Below are positions 20,989-38,600 of a stretch of DNA of 64,000 nucleotides, in pieces. This stretch comes from Pseudanabaena sp. ABRG5-3 (lineage in GTDB: Bacteria > Cyanobacteriota > Cyanobacteriia > Pseudanabaenales > Pseudanabaenaceae). Position 1 is the stretch's first letter, and every line of letters begins with the position of its first letter. The DNA lies in NCBI RefSeq assembly GCF_003967015.1, contig NZ_AP017560.1:310001-374000 (forward strand), in the 5' to 3' direction. The translations under genes were made by a program, and so were the position numbers. Below the pieces are notes generated by a model. It ran no database searches. It was not told the DNA's origin and saw only the letters and a list, made by a program, of their open reading frames with translations.

Positions 20989-21627
20989 ATGAGCTTAAAA
21001 TTATATCTACTGCGTCATGGCGAAACTGCCTATAGCCGCACTGGTGGCTATTGTGGCGAGCTTGATCCTGAATTAACAGAGAATGGCGAAAAAATGGCCC
21101 AAGCTTTTGGCGATGCTTATAAAGCGATCGCATGGGATGCCGTGTTTGTCAGTCCAATGAAACGCACGATCGCCACAGCCACACCTCTATGCACAGCAGT
21201 CAACATAGAAATGCAATTTCGAGATGGTTTAAAAGAATTGCGCTATGGCAAATGGGAAGGATTAACTAATGAGTTCGTGAAGGATAACTATAGCGATGAT
21301 TATCTGCGATGGCTAACGGAGCCTGCATGGAATCCGCCCACAGGTGGCGAAACCGCCGTGCAACTTGCAAGCCGAGCTTCATTTGTAATTGCCGAAATCC
21401 AAGAGATGTATCCATCGGGGAATGTATTAGTTGTTTCCCATAAGGCGACTATTCGCGTGATTCTCTGTAGCTTATTGGGAATTGATATGGGTAGATATCG
21501 CGATCGCATTGATGTCCCTGCTGCCTCACTCAGCATCGTTCAGTTTGGCGCACTTGGTCCCATGCTCAAGGTGTTAGGCGATCGCAGTTTTATGGATGCT
21601 GACTTGCGATCGCTAGTTGGAACTTAA
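20989..21627 (+). CDS. Histidine phosphatase superfamily protein, 212 aa
   Basis: The N-terminus LYLLRHGETAYS (4-15) carries the RHG catalytic signature with the histidine that is phosphorylated, and the second histidine lies in VVSHKATIRVILCSLLG (about 149-165). The conserved Glu is in KELRYGKWEG. The family includes cofactor-dependent phosphoglycerate mutase-like enzymes and phosphatases acting on sugar phosphates. Its place directly behind phosphoketolase suggests a substrate in the same sugar-phosphate pathway, but this is inference. The ATG follows a short AT-rich stretch without a clear Shine-Dalgarno. Confidence 0.88.
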   Translation: MSLKLYLLRHGETAYSRTGGYCGELDPELTENGEKMAQAFGDAYKAIAWDAVFVSPMKRTIATATPLCTAVNIEMQFRDGLKELRYGKWEGLTNEFVKDNYSDDYLRWLTEPAWNPPTGGETAVQLASRASFVIAEIQEMYPSGNVLVVSHKATIRVILCSLLGIDMGRYRDRIDVPAASLSIVQFGALGPMLKVLGDRSFMDADLRSLVGT

Positions 21628-21630
21628 TCC

Positions 21631-21685
21631 ATATCTAAAGAGGTTTTGATTTTGTCGCAGGCAAAATCAAAACCTCTTTAGATAT
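21631..21685. terminator. Long perfect hairpin between phosphatase gene and purL
   Basis: A 24-bp perfect stem starting ATATCTAAAGAGGTTTTGAT with a 7-base loop lies between two convergent genes. T/A-rich ends allow it to work for both. Its length exceeds ordinary terminators and fits the palindromic elements seen elsewhere in the window. Confidence 0.6.
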
Positions 21686-21693
21686 AGCGCTTT

Positions 21694-24021
21694 TTACAAA
21701 GTATGTCCCATGCGTTTGGGAATAGACTCATTGAAATTTTTGGTGATGTCTGAGAGAGAGACAGCGATCGCCTTTTCTCCTGCAACCACGATTTCCAAAT
21801 CGCTAGCTGCATCGCTTACCGTACCAATATGCTGCCAAGCATTACCTAGCTGACTGGCGAGATAAGCTTCCCATGTAGGGCGATCGCTTTCTTTGACCGA
21901 AACGACAATGCGACTTGCGCCTTCACCAAAGAGAAGTTGAGTGAGATTTAAACCTTCAGGAATAGAGAGTTGAATCTGCGCTGTGAGTTTGCCAGAAATT
22001 GAGGATTCGGCGATCGCTACAGCAAGCCCACCTTCGGCACAATCATGGGCGGATTGGATTAAGCCTTGGGTGATGCCTTGGCGACAGGTAAATTGGACTT
22101 TGCGCTCTAGTTCAAAATCGACAGGTTGGGGACGACCTGTGACTTCACCGATAACTGAGGCGAGATATTCAGACCCTGCGAGACTAGCGCGATCGCTACC
22201 GAGTAAATAAATCGCATCGCCAACATTCTGCCAACTCTGACCAACGACCTTGGTGACATCTTCCACTAAACCGACCATACCGATCACAGGTGTCGGATAA
22301 ATGGGCTGAGCATTACCTTCGGAGTCGATGGTTTCGTTATAGAGAGAAACATTACCGCCAGTCACAGGAGTGGACAACTCACGGCAAGCATCGGCAATAC
22401 CGCGACAAGCTTCGTGTAATTGCCAATAACCGATCGCATGTTCGGGACTGCCAAAGTTCAAATTATCGGTGACAGATAGAGGCTCAGAACCAACACAGGA
22501 GAGATTTCTGGCTGCCTCCGCAACGGCTAGCTTTGCGCCTTCGTAGGGGTCAAGATAGACATAACGCGCATTGCAATCAACGGTAGCGGCAACCCCTGCA
22601 AGGGAATCGATTTGACATTGCGCTGAGTTTAGTTCCCCTGCGCCAAAACCTTGACTGCGTAGACGAATTACTGCCGCATCAGCGCCTCCGGGAAATATCA
22701 CCGTATTATTTTGAACTTGATGATCGTATTGGCGATAGACCCACGCTTTGGAGGCGATCGCAGGGGTATCGAGTAATTTCAAGAGTGCTTCGTTAGGATT
22801 AATTTCTGGGAAATTAGCGATCGCTGTTTTCTCATCCCACGCCCAAGCTTTCTTTGCATAGTCAGGAGTATCAGCTAGCTGACGATGATAAATAGGTGTA
22901 TTGTCAGCGAGGGCAGTAGCAGGAATCTCCGCCGCAACTTCACCATGCCAGAGAATCCGCACAATTGGCTCCGCGAGAACTTCTCCAGCAACTACCGCAT
23001 GAAGTCCCCACCGTTCAAAAATTTCAATTAGTTCCGCTTCTCTTCCCTTATGAGCAACAAAGAGCATTCGCTCCTGTGATTCCGACAGCAGATATTCATA
23101 GGGAGTCATGCCTGATTCTCTCGCAGGAATCTTATCCAAGTCGAGGGATACACCCACTCCACCTTTCGCCGCCATTTCCGAAGTGGAACAGGTTAAGCCT
23201 GCTGCGCCCATATCCTGCGCCGCCACCACAGCCCCAGTTTTAAATGCTTCCAAACAAGCTTCCACTAGGGACTTTTCTAAAAAGGGATCGCCCACCTGCA
23301 CCGCAGGACGACTTTGTTCGGATTTATCGGAAAGCTCAGCACTGGCGAAACTTGCACCTTTCATGCCATCACGTCCAGTGGTGGAACCAACATAAACAAC
23401 GGGATTGCCAATGCCAGCAGCACCTGACTTGACGATTTCCTTAGCTTCCATAATCCCGATCGCCATCGCATTCACAAGCGGATTACGGTTATATGCCTTG
23501 TCAAAATAAACTTCGCCACCAACGGTCGGAACGCCGATACAATTGCCATAGCCAGCGATGCCATTGACAATCCCATTGACACGACTGCGTACCCAAGGAT
23601 CGGACAGTTCACCAAAGCGTAATGAGTTCAAAATCGCGACAGGACGCGCTCCCATCGTGAAAATATCTCGCAAAATACCACCCACACCTGTAGCTGCGCC
23701 TTGGTACGGCTCGACCGCCGAAGGACGGTTATGGCTTTCAATCTTAAAACTAATGGCAATATCATCGGTAATCTTGACTACGCCTGCATTTTCCCCTGGC
23801 CCAACCAAAATGCGATCGCCTGTGGTGGGAAATTGTTTAAGTAAAGGTCGCGAATTTTTATAGCAGCAATGCTCTGACCACATCACACCAAACATCCCTA
23901 ATTCGGCTTTGTTGGGTTCACGACCAAGGCGATCGCAAATCATTTGATATTCGTCTAGGGTCAAACCTTCAGCTTTGATTTCGGCTGGGGAAAATTTGGG
24001 TGTGGTGATATTTGCGGTCAT
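21694..24021 (-). CDS. purL: Phosphoribosylformylglycinamidine synthase subunit PurL, 775 aa
   Basis: The protein begins with the PurL pattern [18 protein letters not shown] and [15 protein letters not shown] (about 49-63), followed by [32 protein letters not shown] (read as [13 protein letters not shown] and GAATGVGG), and duplicated AIRS-like ATP-binding halves. It is the small-form PurL (about 750-780 aa) that works with PurS and PurQ to convert FGAR, ATP and glutamine to FGAM in purine synthesis. PurS and PurQ are not in this window. It is read opposite to the phosphatase gene and apparently single. Confidence 0.97.
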
Positions 24022-34494: not shown

Positions 34495-36357
34495 ATGAGC
34501 AGGGGCAACGGAAAAAATAGCAGCAGCATGAACGTAATTTGGGTCGTGCTAGCATTGGCTGCCCTCGGTACTGGCATGGGTGCAGCGATCGCTTCACGGT
34601 TTGTCACCTATCGTACTTCCTCCACCAGTAGTGTAGAGACTCCTGACCTAAATCCCAATAATTCCGTTACCCAATCTAGAAATTCCCCATCATTCTGCCA
34701 ATACAATGCACTGGACTCGGTAACAGCTTCGCTATATCAGGTTAGAGCCATCAATGCGATCGCCAATGATCCCTTACCCACCCTCTCAAATTTAAGTAAT
34801 GCGATTAATGCGGATCTCGTCGCCAGTTTTAATCCTGCTCCATTTCCGCAAATTAGCGATCGCGCCCGTGCCGCAAAAGTCCCAATCATCATGTATCACG
34901 ACATTACTGCCACCAAAGATGTGGAGTGGGATGTCACCCCAGAGGATCTCGAAAAGCATTTTCAAGCCTTACAAGATGGTGGCTATACACCAATTACGAT
35001 GGATCGTTTAGTTAACCATCTGCGGACTGGCTCCCAATTGCCAGAGAAGCCCGTATTGCTGACCTTTGATGATAACTATGTTGGTCAGTACAAATATGCT
35101 TTTCCCCTACTCCAAAAGTATAACTATCCTGCGGTATGGTCAGTGCATACCCGTTTTGTGGGTACTGCGGGTCAGAAGCCCAAGGCAACATGGGATCAAC
35201 TGCGAGAAATGCAGAAAAGCGGCTTGATCACCATTGCTTCCCATACGGTGAATCACCTCAATATGAAGAACCTCAGCAATGCAGAACTAGAACGTGAGGT
35301 ACTAGAGTCCAAGAAAACTCTGGAAAAGGAACTGGGTATAACCATTGATTATTTCACTTATCCTGAAGGTGATTTCACGGAACGCGCTAAGGATAAGGTG
35401 AAGGATGCGGGTTACAAGGCAGCGCTGTCAATGAGTCTCGATCCTCGACAAGAGCGCTCGGCTAATGAATCCGATGATTTACTTACGATTATGCGCTTTG
35501 GACAGTCTCGCTTTAGTGAGGCGATCGAACAAGCTTCCAGTGGAACTTCCGCAAGTCAAGTTTCACTTTTGCCCACGGTCAGCAGTGGAACTATCAATTT
35601 CACTACACCTGTAGAGAAAAAGAAAGTTACGGTTGATGGTTTACCCCTGACTTTGGTATATGGCGGTCGTGCTGTTACAGCCCATGCCGATAAACGCGCT
35701 CAGGTTGCCGAGATTTTAGCGATGACTCCCAATGCGATCGCTGCCGTTGATGGCGGCTTTTTCTCCTTGGAGCGCATTGATGGCAATACGATGATTGGGC
35801 CAGTGATGAGTCAATTCTCTAGCAATGCAGGAGTATTTAATGCTGGTAATAAAGGTGAAAATCCACTCCTCAACGGTCGTCCCTTAGTATTAATTAGCCC
35901 CACCGCAATTAAATTTATTCCCTTTAATGCTGCTAAGCATAATTCTCTCGAAGCCGTCAAAGCGGAATTACCCGATGTCACCGATGCCTTTGTTGCCGCA
36001 GGTTGGCTCGTCCGCGATGGTAAACCCCAATCCGCCGAGTCCTTTGGTAAGCTCTATGGTTTTGATGCAAGTCGCGATCGTGCATTTTGGGGAATTGATA
36101 AATCTGGTAGACCTGTCATTGGTGTAACCATGGAAATGATCGATTCCGTTGGTTTAGGCAAGATCTTAGCAAAGGCAGGTTTACAGGATGTCGTGATGCT
36201 AGATTCAGGGGCAAGTGCTGCCCTTGCCTATCGAGGTAAATCCGTAATGGCGTATGAGCCTCGCCCTGTTCCCCATATTGTCGCGCTCTTACCCCCTGAT
36301 CCCGCCCCCGTAGAAACTACTGAGAAGCCTAATTGTCCCGTCAGTCTAAATCGCTAG
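34495..36357 (+). CDS. Polysaccharide deacetylase fused to phosphodiester glycosidase (DUF2233) domain, 620 aa
   Basis: An N-terminal hydrophobic anchor (about 11-37) is followed by a NodB domain: VPIIMYHDI (about 130), LLTFDDNYV (about 189) and ITIASHTVNHLNM (about 243-255), with YFTYPEGDF near 282. This region should remove acetyl groups from an N-acetylated wall or exopolysaccharide. From about residue 365 a DUF2233/NAGPA-like domain follows: NAIAAVDGGFFSLERIDGN (partly: IAAVDGGFFS), VAAGWLVRDG, VVMLDSGASAALAYRGK (partly: VMLDSGASAAL). That family cleaves phosphodiester-linked sugars. The fusion would act outside the inner membrane on a cell-surface glycan. Preceded by a terminator; single gene. 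Confidence 0.88.
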   Translation: MSRGNGKNSSSMNVIWVVLALAALGTGMGAAIASRFVTYRTSSTSSVETPDLNPNNSVTQSRNSPSFCQYNALDSVTASLYQVRAINAIANDPLPTLSNLSNAINADLVASFNPAPFPQISDRARAAKVPIIMYHDITATKDVEWDVTPEDLEKHFQALQDGGYTPITMDRLVNHLRTGSQLPEKPVLLTFDDNYVGQYKYAFPLLQKYNYPAVWSVHTRFVGTAGQKPKATWDQLREMQKSGLITIASHTVNHLNMKNLSNAELEREVLESKKTLEKELGITIDYFTYPEGDFTERAKDKVKDAGYKAALSMSLDPRQERSANESDDLLTIMRFGQSRFSEAIEQASSGTSASQVSLLPTVSSGTINFTTPVEKKKVTVDGLPLTLVYGGRAVTAHADKRAQVAEILAMTPNAIAAVDGGFFSLERIDGNTMIGPVMSQFSSNAGVFNAGNKGENPLLNGRPLVLISPTAIKFIPFNAAKHNSLEAVKAELPDVTDAFVAAGWLVRDGKPQSAESFGKLYGFDASRDRAFWGIDKSGRPVIGVTMEMIDSVGLGKILAKAGLQDVVMLDSGASAALAYRGKSVMAYEPRPVPHIVALLPPDPAPVETTEKPNCPVSLNR

Positions 36358-36444
36358 ATACTATAAGAGGTGCAACCACATGATGTACCTCTTATAACTC
36401 CTTGCAGATTAGAGATTTAAGAATGGTCTTGTGGAGAGTAATAA

Positions 36445-37005
36445 TTGACTACGGCAAAACAATATGAAGACATAATTACATCTTTGCAGTGGGATGGTTT
36501 GAAATCACTATGGAATAAAATTGAGGAGCGTAATACTCCGACATGGGATGCGGGCAAAGCTTTTGAATATTTAGTGTTAAGAGCATTTCAACTGGACGGT
36601 GCAGAAGTTAGATATCCCTATGGGGTAAAACTTTTTGGTCAGAGTCAAGAGATTGAGCAAATTGATGGTGTTATTCATTGCCATGGACTATCTTGCTTAA
36701 TTGAGAGCAAGGATTTTCAAGACAAAGTAAACGTTGATTTTGCACCTATTGCTAAACTTCGTAATCAACTTTTACGTCGTCCTGCAAGTACAATTGGGGC
36801 AGTATTTAGTAGAACAGGTTTTACGGAATCAGCACGTAGTCTTTCGTGTTTTTGTCTACCTCAGACAATTCTTTTATGGAGTGGAGAAGAAATAAAATAT
36901 GCACTAGAAAAAGAAGTTATATGTGAGCTATTAGTTCTTAAATATCGCTTTTGTGTAGAACATGCTCTAACTGATTACAACGTTACAGAGAGGGACATTT
37001 TATGA
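36445..37005 (+). CDS. PD-(D/E)XK nuclease-like (Mrr-type) protein, 186 aa
   Basis: The protein has the order of a restriction-endonuclease fold: WDAGKAFEYLVLRAF with E41, EIEQIDGVIHCHGLSCLIESKDF with D74, E87 and K89 (read as EQIDGVIHCHG and LIESKDF), the PD-(D/E)XK catalytic set. The C-terminal third (about 115-186) is helical and contains several cysteines. The start is a TTG without strong Shine-Dalgarno. The stop overlaps the next ATG as ATGA, so it is translationally coupled to a TOPRIM protein. A nuclease acting with that partner, for example in defence, is inference; I cannot name the family exactly. Confidence 0.72.
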   Translation: MTTAKQYEDIITSLQWDGLKSLWNKIEERNTPTWDAGKAFEYLVLRAFQLDGAEVRYPYGVKLFGQSQEIEQIDGVIHCHGLSCLIESKDFQDKVNVDFAPIAKLRNQLLRRPASTIGAVFSRTGFTESARSLSCFCLPQTILLWSGEEIKYALEKEVICELLVLKYRFCVEHALTDYNVTERDIL

Positions 37006-37550
37006 TTGCTTACATTGTTTGTGAAGGCGATTTTGATACCCAGTTACTCAAGGCTGTTCTCCCCAAAGACTTACTCCAAAAAGTTGAAATTGTTTCTGCG
37101 GGTGGTCAATATGCGGCTAAGTCCCTTGCCCGTTCGCTAATTGTGCGTAGGCAAGCTCCAGTTGCACTTGTTCTTGATGCAGATTTAATAGATCCCGATC
37201 TAATTCAAGAGCGTTGTACTAGTATTCAAGAATTACTTGAAAGCGTATCTATTAATACTCCTGTGAAAGTGATACTTGCCGTTCCTCAGATTGAGTCTAT
37301 TTTATTTCAGGATAGGGGATTACTTTGCCGCTTAATGGGACTAGAAATTACTTCAGATACAGTCGTTAATGCTAGAAATCAACCTAAGAAAGCTCTAGAG
37401 AAATTAATTTCACAATCTAAAAGTTATCAGGGTCAATCTCAAATTATCAATCAATTAGTCCATGAAGATCTTGAGATTCTCCGCAAAGATCCAGTGATTC
37501 AAGAATTAGTTCAGTTTCTTCAATCTGTGCGAGAACCAGCAAAAGTATAA
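37002..37550 (+). CDS. TOPRIM-domain protein, 182 aa
   Basis: The N-terminus AYIVCEGDFDTQLLKAVL gives the TOPRIM Glu (E8) and first motif; VALVLDADLID (54-64) holds the D-x-D pair (D59, D61), and VPQIESILFQD (about 92-102) is a later conserved acid region. TOPRIM folds occur in primases, topoisomerases, OLD nucleases and small stand-alone proteins of defence and mobile loci. The GG of SAGGQYAAK lies between the motifs. There is no ATPase domain here, unlike OLD nucleases. It is coupled by a 4-base overlap to the PD-(D/E)XK protein. A terminator follows. Molecular activity is inferred from motifs only. Confidence 0.72.
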   Translation: MIAYIVCEGDFDTQLLKAVLPKDLLQKVEIVSAGGQYAAKSLARSLIVRRQAPVALVLDADLIDPDLIQERCTSIQELLESVSINTPVKVILAVPQIESILFQDRGLLCRLMGLEITSDTVVNARNQPKKALEKLISQSKSYQGQSQIINQLVHEDLEILRKDPVIQELVQFLQSVREPAKV

Positions 37551-37563
37551 TCAACGATTAAAA

Positions 37564-37590
37564 TAAAAGCCTCGCTTTGCGAGGCTTTTA
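37564..37590. terminator. Bidirectional terminator between the TOPRIM gene and ctaB
   Basis: A perfect 12-bp stem TAAAAGCCTCGC with TTT loop ends in A/T on both sides and lies between the two converging genes. Confidence 0.75.
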
Positions 37591-37595
37591 AGGGT

Positions 37596-38600
37596 TTAGA
37601 TGCTACTTGGTATTTGTAACAGGGCGATCGCCTGTTGACTGGAAATATGGGCGAGGGGCAAGCTATCAATTCCCATCGCGACGCAGAGTAGGGCTAAATA
37701 GAGAATTGAATATTTGAAGACTGATCGCGCCACATTGCGATCGCTAGGTTCCTTGAGTAACTGCATCGCCTTATAAATAAAGGCTATCCCTAGTCCAACT
37801 GCGGACACTGCATATACTACTCCCATTACATTGCAAGGAAAAACTAACAAGAGAGACACAGGGATAATTAGCAATGTATAGAGCAAAATCTGGTTAGCTG
37901 TTACCGCATCACCCTTGACCACGGGCAACATCGGTACACCGACCTTGGCATACTCATCACGAATCATCAGTGCCAAAGCCCAAAAGTGAGGTGGAGTCCA
38001 GACAAAGATAATTGCAAATAAGACCCATGCTGCCCAACTCAGTTCACCTGTTACAGCCGCCCAACCAACTAGGGGGGGGATTGCACCTGCTGCCCCACCA
38101 ATGACGATATTTTGAGTACTAGAACGCTTGAGCCAAATCGTATAAACACCGACGTAGGTAGCGATCCCCGACATGGCGAGACAGGCGGCTAAGAGATTGG
38201 CATAGACCGCTAGCAACGTAAAGGAAATTGCGGCAAGGGCGATCGCAAAAATCAGCGCATTCAGTGGCTGAATTCTACCCGATGGAATGGGTCGCCAACT
38301 GGTGCGCTCCATTTTGGCATCAATGTCGCGATCGTATAAACAGTTAATCGCATTTGCCGAAGCTGCCGCGATCGCTCCTCCCAAAACCGTAATAAACATC
38401 AAAAATCCGTCAACTTGCCCCTCCGATGCAATCCACATCGCCCCTGCGGTGGTAATGAGCAACAGTACGATAATCCGTGGTTTGGTTAATTCTGTGTAAT
38501 CTTGGATCACCTCGCGCCAGTTCCGATTCATCGATGGATTGGCGGGTGCAAAGATATTTTCTTCGGAAATAGTTAATTCTTGAATAGCTGTTTCTTGCAT
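37596..38600 (-). CDS. ctaB: Protoheme IX farnesyltransferase (heme O synthase), 334 aa
   Basis: The UbiA-type motif [15 protein letters not shown] (read as [12 protein letters not shown], about 85-96) with the DxxxD acids and the second region [24 protein letters not shown] fit CtaB. It farnesylates heme b to heme O for the aa3-type cytochrome oxidase and is a polytopic membrane protein with about nine hydrophobic segments. It follows the heme A synthase gene by 37 bases on the same strand. Cox subunit genes are not adjacent in this window. Confidence 0.95.

Follow-up and report, generated by a model that had tools for sequence, protein, structure and literature searches.

TOPRIM domains and PD-(D/E)XK domains are both well known in defence, and OLD-type TOPRIM proteins are nuclease effectors driven by ATPases. 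In OLD proteins of class 1 and class 2 (BpOLD, GajA), a C-terminal TOPRIM region is combined with an N-terminal ABC-type ATPase, and Gabija couples such an ATPase-TOPRIM protein (GajA) with the helicase GajB. In PARIS (AriA/AriB) and in MADS (MAD3/MAD4) the TOPRIM domain has its own gene beside that of its partner. HEC-01, a candidate system of PADLOC, consists of the ATPase HEC-01A and the TOPRIM-like HEC-01B. On the nuclease side, the analogues are proteins whose cleavage part is separate or under control: the small subunit of R.BspD6I and the Can2/Card1/Cdn1 group of type III CRISPR, in which a PD-(D/E)XK nuclease is governed by a separate CARF regulatory domain. In PARIS, AriA holds AriB in an inactive state, from which a phage protein releases it (PMC12409363), and an N-terminal domain is reported to be fused to TOPRIM or to an Mrr-like REase, in separate proteins (PMC3710099). 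OLD-ABC ATPases paired with PD-(D/E)XK nucleases that replace the TOPRIM, as reported in PMC12839542, are a different combination from the one reported here. In the open-licence literature that we searched, PMC10568477, PMC10853773 and PMC12988326 included, we found no description of a stand-alone TOPRIM gene with an Mrr-type nuclease as its partner, although absence from print is unproven. No match in Pfam, NCBIfam or PADLOC (2023) names it.

Such a pair is found in Pseudanabaena sp. ABRG5-3. The window is a stretch of 64,000 nt (NZ_AP017560.1, positions 310,001 to 374,000, forward strand), and the features of the locus are collected in Table 1. Both small genes of the original prediction are present with their ATGA overlap, and its flanks are identified as well, namely a deacetylase gene, a heme O synthase-like UbiA-type gene and, next after the latter, a heme A synthase gene. 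The GGAG just 5' of the nuclease gene also occurs in 6 of 6 further upstream stretches inspected (out of 79 relatives). Between the deacetylase and nuclease genes lies a perfect inverted repeat, which may be a terminator or an operator.

Table 1. Features of the nuclease-TOPRIM locus, in positions of the window.
Feature	Position	Strand	Remarks
PD-(D/E)XK (Mrr_cat) nuclease gene	36445-37005	+	186 aa; TTG start; catalytic E41, D74, E87, K89
Stand-alone OLD-type TOPRIM protein gene (assigned from model)	37002-37550	+	182 aa; E8, D59, D61, P95, E98
ATGA start/stop overlap of nuclease and TOPRIM genes	37002-37005	+	putative translational coupling
GGAG, likely ribosome-binding site of nuclease gene	36433-36436	+
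Inserted stretch, approximate	36358-37564	.	from deacetylase gene to terminator-like repeat; relatives L129/L130 lack the pair
Perfect 10-bp inverted repeat, 15-nt spacer	36362-36396		within inserted stretch
Terminator-like repeat	37565-37589		follows heme O synthase-like gene
Polysaccharide deacetylase gene	34495-36357		flank of pair
UbiA-type prenyltransferase gene, fits heme O synthase	37596-38600	-	flank of pair

The slot that the pair occupies is variable, about 1.2 kb long, empty in close relatives and free of mobile-element genes, in agreement with the earlier remark that no known mobile elements flank it. The close relatives L129 and L130 lack the pair; there, only a short gap separates the deacetylase gene from a similar terminator-like repeat, and in L141 the slot is a short empty gap. 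L126 carries a different small gene there (1124-1456, 110 aa), which we take to be DUF433-like, so this slot could in itself be a small hot spot of integration. Other coding remnants are observed in the slot of L147. The pair is patchy in the genus: a relative of the heme gene is found in 26 of 26 genomes and the nuclease in 4 of 26, the window genome included. In most other genomes of the genus the stretch examined does not show the deacetylase gene beside the heme gene, and the slot is not comparable there.

AlphaFold models were predicted separately for the two window proteins, each built from an alignment of relatives. The TOPRIM model (mean pLDDT 93.6, pTM 0.89) matches the C-terminal region of OLD proteins in fold, with a Z score of 12.8 over 166 aligned residues (rmsd 3.7; Foldseek E 6.1e-5) for 6nk8 and Z scores of 12.8-11.7 along its length for the C-terminal regions of BpOLD and XccOLD. 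The TOPRIM part of GajA follows with Z 8.7-10.6, and PH0156 (2p62) with Z 10.4. The match by sequence is only weak. Pfam gives OLD-like_TOPRIM at 15.3 bits, under the cut-off of 23.2; the PADLOC model HEC-01B matches with E 1.7e-6, and NCBIfam MAD4 with E 3.3e-5 and 24.1 bits against a cut-off of 160. A search of the PDB by sequence profile returns just three matches for the TOPRIM protein (E 0.35-0.42), all of them unrelated proteins. In the family, HEC-01B (PDLC04194) matches 27 of the 57 members of TOPRIM alignment A7 (the window protein and 56 of 70 dereplicated rows) at E up to 0.01.

By its model, the window TOPRIM protein (182 aa) is a whole OLD-type C-terminal TOPRIM region without the ATPase domain, as it aligns along its length to that region. 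The original prediction that it is not an ordinary OLD nuclease is borne out. Compared with OLD proteins of class 1 and class 2, it has no N-terminal ABC-type ATPase, no ATPase gene adjoins it and its partner is a PD-(D/E)XK nuclease. Unlike HEC-01, the window holds only the HEC-01B-like component, with no adjoining ATPase gene; unlike Gabija, it has neither the ATPase domain nor an adjoining helicase gene. No ABC ATPase gene of the AriA kind adjoins the pair as it would in PARIS or a class 4 OLD system, the neighbours being the nuclease, the deacetylase and the UbiA-type prenyltransferase. MAD4 scores far under its cut-off, and the adjoining genes of the window fall outside the MADS gene set. 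The partner is therefore a nuclease and not the ABC ATPase of PARIS and MADS, and TOPRIM may here be a restraint instead of an effector.

The nuclease has Mrr_cat as the sole Pfam domain found (residues 37-151), at 21.0 bits and exactly at the cut-off of 21, so that the catalytic domain of Mrr and type IV restriction is present with its cut-off just reached. Mrr_cat matches 51 of the 55 members of nuclease alignment A8 (the window protein and 54 of 59 rows) at E up to 0.1, and the Csx1 'ARF+Nuclease' model matches 2 of the 55. PADLOC assigns no family to the nuclease, and the PDB gives no match for it by sequence profile. Its model (mean pLDDT 93.9, pTM 0.90) is closest to AF1548 (1y88; Z 12.9, rmsd 2.5, 116 aligned) and to the R.BspD6I small subunit (2p14; Z 12.8, 149 aligned), followed by FokI (Z 11.8), HindIII (Z 11.6), the Can2/Card1/Cdn1 group (Z 8.5-11.0) and EndoMS (Z 9.1). 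MspJI is the top match in Foldseek (E 5.4e-5). The fold-match lists of either protein leave other families possible. The predicted nuclease core is common to the window protein, the R.BspD6I small subunit, the FokI cleavage domain, MspJI and AF1548.

From these Pfam and fold matches, the nuclease is best modelled as a cleavage-type PD-(D/E)XK domain of Mrr-like fold without a recognisable recognition domain. Pfam shows Mrr_cat alone and the remaining helices belong to one compact predicted model, in which a small recognition element is possible. The window pair differs from R.BspD6I, FokI, MspJI and AF1548 in that no recognition domain is found, no methyltransferase is present and the nuclease is linked to a TOPRIM gene. 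It differs from Can2 and Card1 in that the nuclease (186 aa) has no fused CARF domain, its model aligning to their nuclease part only; the regulator would here be the TOPRIM protein, encoded by its own gene. The catalytic residues of the nuclease are near invariant. E41 is conserved in 78 of the 78 rows with a residue at this position (3 are gapped), D74 in 81/81, E87 in 80/81 and K89 in 81/81. The E41/D74/E87-x-K89 set of a restriction-type nuclease, read originally from the window alone, is therefore real and conserved, and the fold matches restriction-type nucleases.

To follow the recurrence of the pair, the nuclease alignment was run against some 85,000 species genomes; this gave 113 relatives, and the loci of the best 80 of these 113 were analysed. 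In 80/80 of these best loci the ORF directly downstream, with the same orientation, is a TOPRIM ORF, far exceeding chance. The recurrent co-occurrence expected by the original prediction is thus found, and neither gene gave a match to a characterised housekeeping complex. Among the same best 80 of 113, the overlap is exactly 4 nt in 53 loci and the two genes form one single fused ORF in a Caldithrix bin (L110:7986-9056). The TOPRIM half of this fusion is without E8. By record title, the 80 loci belong to Cyanobacteriota (50), Pseudomonadota (7), Bacteroidota (6), Chloroflexota (6), Thermodesulfobacteriota (5), Planctomycetota (3), Acidobacteriota (1), Calditrichota (1) and Myxococcota (1); many of the records in this nine-phyla tally are metagenome bins, and single assignments may err. 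In a sample of 292 cyanobacterial genomes, a TOPRIM match is found in 19 and a nuclease match in 18. There, a whole or partial nuclease lies beside 19 of 21 TOPRIM places, and TOPRIM is found at 18 of 19 nuclease places, the remaining one being a nuclease fragment.

The gene-tree distances of the two proteins correlate, with a Mantel r of 0.84 over 81 rows (0 of 999 permutations as high) and of 0.64 over the 30 non-cyanobacterial rows. In the nuclease tree the phyla are interleaved in part, with 16 label changes where 8 would be the minimum possible, so that joint transfer is indicated in addition to shared descent. To be noted, both trees were built by a quick method and have long branches, flagged by warnings in the case of TOPRIM, and label-change counts are no proof of transfer. 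Plasmids do carry the pair, but rarely: it is present in 3 of 72,556 plasmid records, namely Leptolyngbya NIES-3755 plasmids 1 and 3 and Rhizobium pRlX3. Leptolyngbya plasmid 1 bears two copies about 10 kb apart (L024:11398-12450 and 21263-22284), one of them with a split nuclease. A phage-borne module was also considered and was dropped, because viral contigs scanned with either protein or with alignments A1/A2 gave no relative and tblastn against 50,697 phage records gave no match.

The two genes evolve differently. In seven close pairs dN/dS is 0.05-0.19 for the nuclease vs 0.19-0.37 for TOPRIM, the latter being higher in 7 of 7, and mean pairwise identity is 54% for the nuclease vs 34% for TOPRIM. 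The nuclease is thus the constrained part under strong purifying selection, whereas TOPRIM is its faster-evolving partner. The TOPRIM residues E8, D59 and D61 named in the original prediction are real; they are less conserved than those of the nuclease, with counts of 73/81, 74/81 and 65/81. The E8/D59/D61(or E) set is complete in 59/81 members, the window protein included, and incomplete in 22/81, where the incomplete state corresponds to 19 changes on the quick nuclease tree, the motif strings having been inspected by eye. In 21 of these 22 the adjoining nuclease has the full E-D-E-K set, and the original suggestion that both proteins could act on DNA or RNA is not supported in the sense of two nucleases. 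Other parts of TOPRIM are conserved even where catalysis is doubtful, since P95 is invariant and E98 is kept in 76/81.

The decay of the pair is asymmetric as well. A gene was called broken when less than 90% (nuclease) or 85% (TOPRIM) of the profile lay within one ORF; the TOPRIM of L103 (55%) was counted complete by eye, its ORF ending in the C-terminal motif of the family. In the nuclease-anchored set (best 80 of 113), the nuclease is broken beside an intact TOPRIM ORF in 6 loci, while, with L103 counted complete, none of the 78 loci uncut by a contig end has a broken TOPRIM next to a whole nuclease. In-frame nuclease stops occur at different places in L048, L061, L090, L099 and L123, and a frameshift is found in L069. 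Sequencing errors in draft genomes may lie behind some of these stops, less likely for the in-frame stops than for frameshifts. In the TOPRIM-anchored set (n=21) the nuclease is broken, truncated or missing in 8 of the 20 loci uncut by a contig end, and the reverse is seen in 0 of 20. This set is biased to intact TOPRIM genes; the nuclease-anchored set is biased the opposite way and yet gives 6 vs 0. L007 and L099 are one locus present in both sets, leaving 13 different loci with nuclease loss. On plasmids, 2 of 4 nuclease copies are split, and the only counter-case is a Rhizobium plasmid (L022), where it is the TOPRIM ORF that ends prematurely, next to a complete nuclease. TOPRIM genes next to a lost or broken nuclease do not show raised dN/dS (0.19-0.37), which fits recent nuclease loss and also fits a function of TOPRIM on its own.

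The neighbours of the pair are diverse. Of the 155 immediate neighbours, 150 entered the neighbour scan (A3), after removal of five ORFs that were short and doubtful, and its first 25 families were tallied; neighbour genes were called by a longest-ORF rule and short ones may be wrong. Co-directional neighbours are observed upstream in 54 of 77 and downstream in 54 of 78 cases. Many neighbours are housekeeping genes, such as a SUF pair in L122, an ABC transporter in L121 and methylmalonyl-CoA mutase in L101, and the zinc uptake protein ZnuA accounts for 6 of 150 among the families listed. Clustering of 563 neighbour proteins from 80 loci (best 80 of 113) gave no third partner, as no family, ATPase included, tracks the pair. 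The largest cluster occurs at varying positions in 13 of these best 80 loci, and presumably contains ABC-transporter-like and other P-loop proteins; the other clusters represent sites common to related strains or widespread cyanobacterial families. Similar upstream genes, which we take to be ATP synthase subunits a and c, are found at L063, L084 and L104 in bins of three different phyla, as a shared site, transfer or misbinning would give. In a search for an upstream operator, 12 of the 80 stretches contained a perfect inverted repeat, its sequence varying between loci, vs 21 of 1600 shuffles; terminators of the upstream genes might explain this excess.

Known or candidate defence genes adjoin the pair at a minority of loci. 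In L030 (L007/L030) PDC-M38A and a DUF3226 gene follow it. In L096 the pair and a pentapeptide-type gene lie between HsdS and HsdM, a site that L092 and L098 share by their neighbour clusters. In L032 (L009/L032) an AriAB-like (PARIS) gene directly precedes a remnant nuclease with TOPRIM intact (L032:8499-10913), an arrangement that looks as if one defence system had inserted into another. Neighbours in some Nostocales loci look like toxin-antitoxin genes. In L106 the pair lies between a PAPS-reductase-fold gene and an EF-Tu-like gene (L106:7090-10730), which we assume to be CysD and CysN. In L105 it also follows a PAPS-reductase-fold gene, again presumably cysD (L105:1936-6766), and right after it come HEC-01A (PDLC04177, 4.1e-156), a DUF4276 partner and another AAA_21 ATPase. 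This full HEC-01A with its own DUF4276 partner is a separate system adjoining the pair. Both L105 and L106 are Methylococcaceae with the pair in the place after the PAPS-reductase-fold gene, L105 having HEC-01 and an OLD-like ATPase in addition, and this place within a housekeeping operon may be a hot spot for defence genes. Because so many neighbours are housekeeping genes, the defence reading draws on a minority of loci. Of the recurrent adjacency in variable islands that the original prediction envisaged, the adjacency and the variable slots are observed, and many of the neighbours are housekeeping genes.

We consider the pair a self-contained two-component nuclease module whose most likely task is defence against phages or plasmids, a reading that we put at about an even chance. 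The pairing foreseen by the original prediction stands on joint inheritance, tight coupling, one fusion, variable slots and, at a minority of loci, defence neighbours; its defence role we infer. The conserved nuclease is often discarded whole, and TOPRIM evolves fast and often loses its residues and yet is kept; therefore we read the nuclease as a costly effector and TOPRIM as its fast-evolving restraint or sensor. Given its patchiness, wide spread, occurrence on plasmids and defence neighbours, a role against phages or plasmids is the best guess for the pair. In a possible mechanism, both proteins would be made together and form a complex, in which the TOPRIM protein would bind the nuclease and hold it off. 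TOPRIM would then couple release or targeting of the nuclease to some sign of invasion, and the freed nuclease would cut DNA, either that of the invader or, in an abortive response, that of the cell itself. By analogy, such a sequestering partner would follow the logic of PARIS, but with the TOPRIM protein on the opposite side.

The main rivals of this defence module are a two-headed nuclease and an addiction module. Both proteins could be active nucleases of a restriction-like enzyme, cutting for example one strand each. The window TOPRIM protein, which retains E8, D12, D59, D61 and E98, the 59/81 members with the set and the fold of OLD nucleases are all consistent with this possibility, but it is made unlikely by the 22/81 members with an incomplete set (19 tree changes), of which 21 sit beside a full-set nuclease. 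We likewise regard it as improbable that the pair is an addiction or toxin-antitoxin-like module, in which the nuclease would be the toxin and TOPRIM the antitoxin, the cassette stabilising itself and defence being secondary or absent. The strong purifying selection on the nuclease, with the partner as the faster-evolving gene, argues against it, even if a tiny two-gene cassette that loses its nuclease before the partner and is carried on plasmids fits such a module, and even if the supposed toxin-antitoxin-like neighbours in some Nostocales loci would suit it. This possibility overlaps with the defence module and may be inseparable from it.

Two further explanations are weaker. TOPRIM and PD-(D/E)XK domains are both found in repair proteins. 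A housekeeping or accessory pair for DNA repair or recombination would agree with this, with the resemblance of the nuclease fold to EndoMS (Z 9.1) and with one copy, on a Rhizobium plasmid, that has Ku genes some 6 kb away. It is disfavoured by the distribution, as the pair is patchy (nuclease in 18 of 292 genomes and 4 of 26 in the genus), occupies varied genomic sites, leaves empty slots in close relatives and decays frequently, and we judge it very unlikely. Least likely would be a mobile, selfish nuclease cassette whose spread relies on cleavage of the empty target site. The many different intergenic slots, some of them inside apparent operons (SUF, ABC transporter, the PAPS-reductase/EF-Tu-like pair), could be understood in this way, but the sites differ between loci, the pair has no integrase or transposase gene and the TOPRIM partner would stay unexplained.

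Returning to the defence module, it is possible, if somewhat short of probable, that the pair represents a widespread two-component immune module in which a TOPRIM protein, stripped of its ATPase and repeatedly also of its active site, serves as sensor and safety catch for a nuclease of the Mrr/FokI type. A module without an ATPase gene of its own, in which the TOPRIM set is lost repeatedly and the nuclease stays intact, would make a defence candidate of compact size (1.2 kb), spread over nine phyla by record title. The pair is small enough for cloning and testing in a laboratory strain, and its naturally inactive or degenerate members are ready-made controls. If this reading is true, the TOPRIM domain would have a new role here, that of a pseudo-nuclease acting as a regulator.
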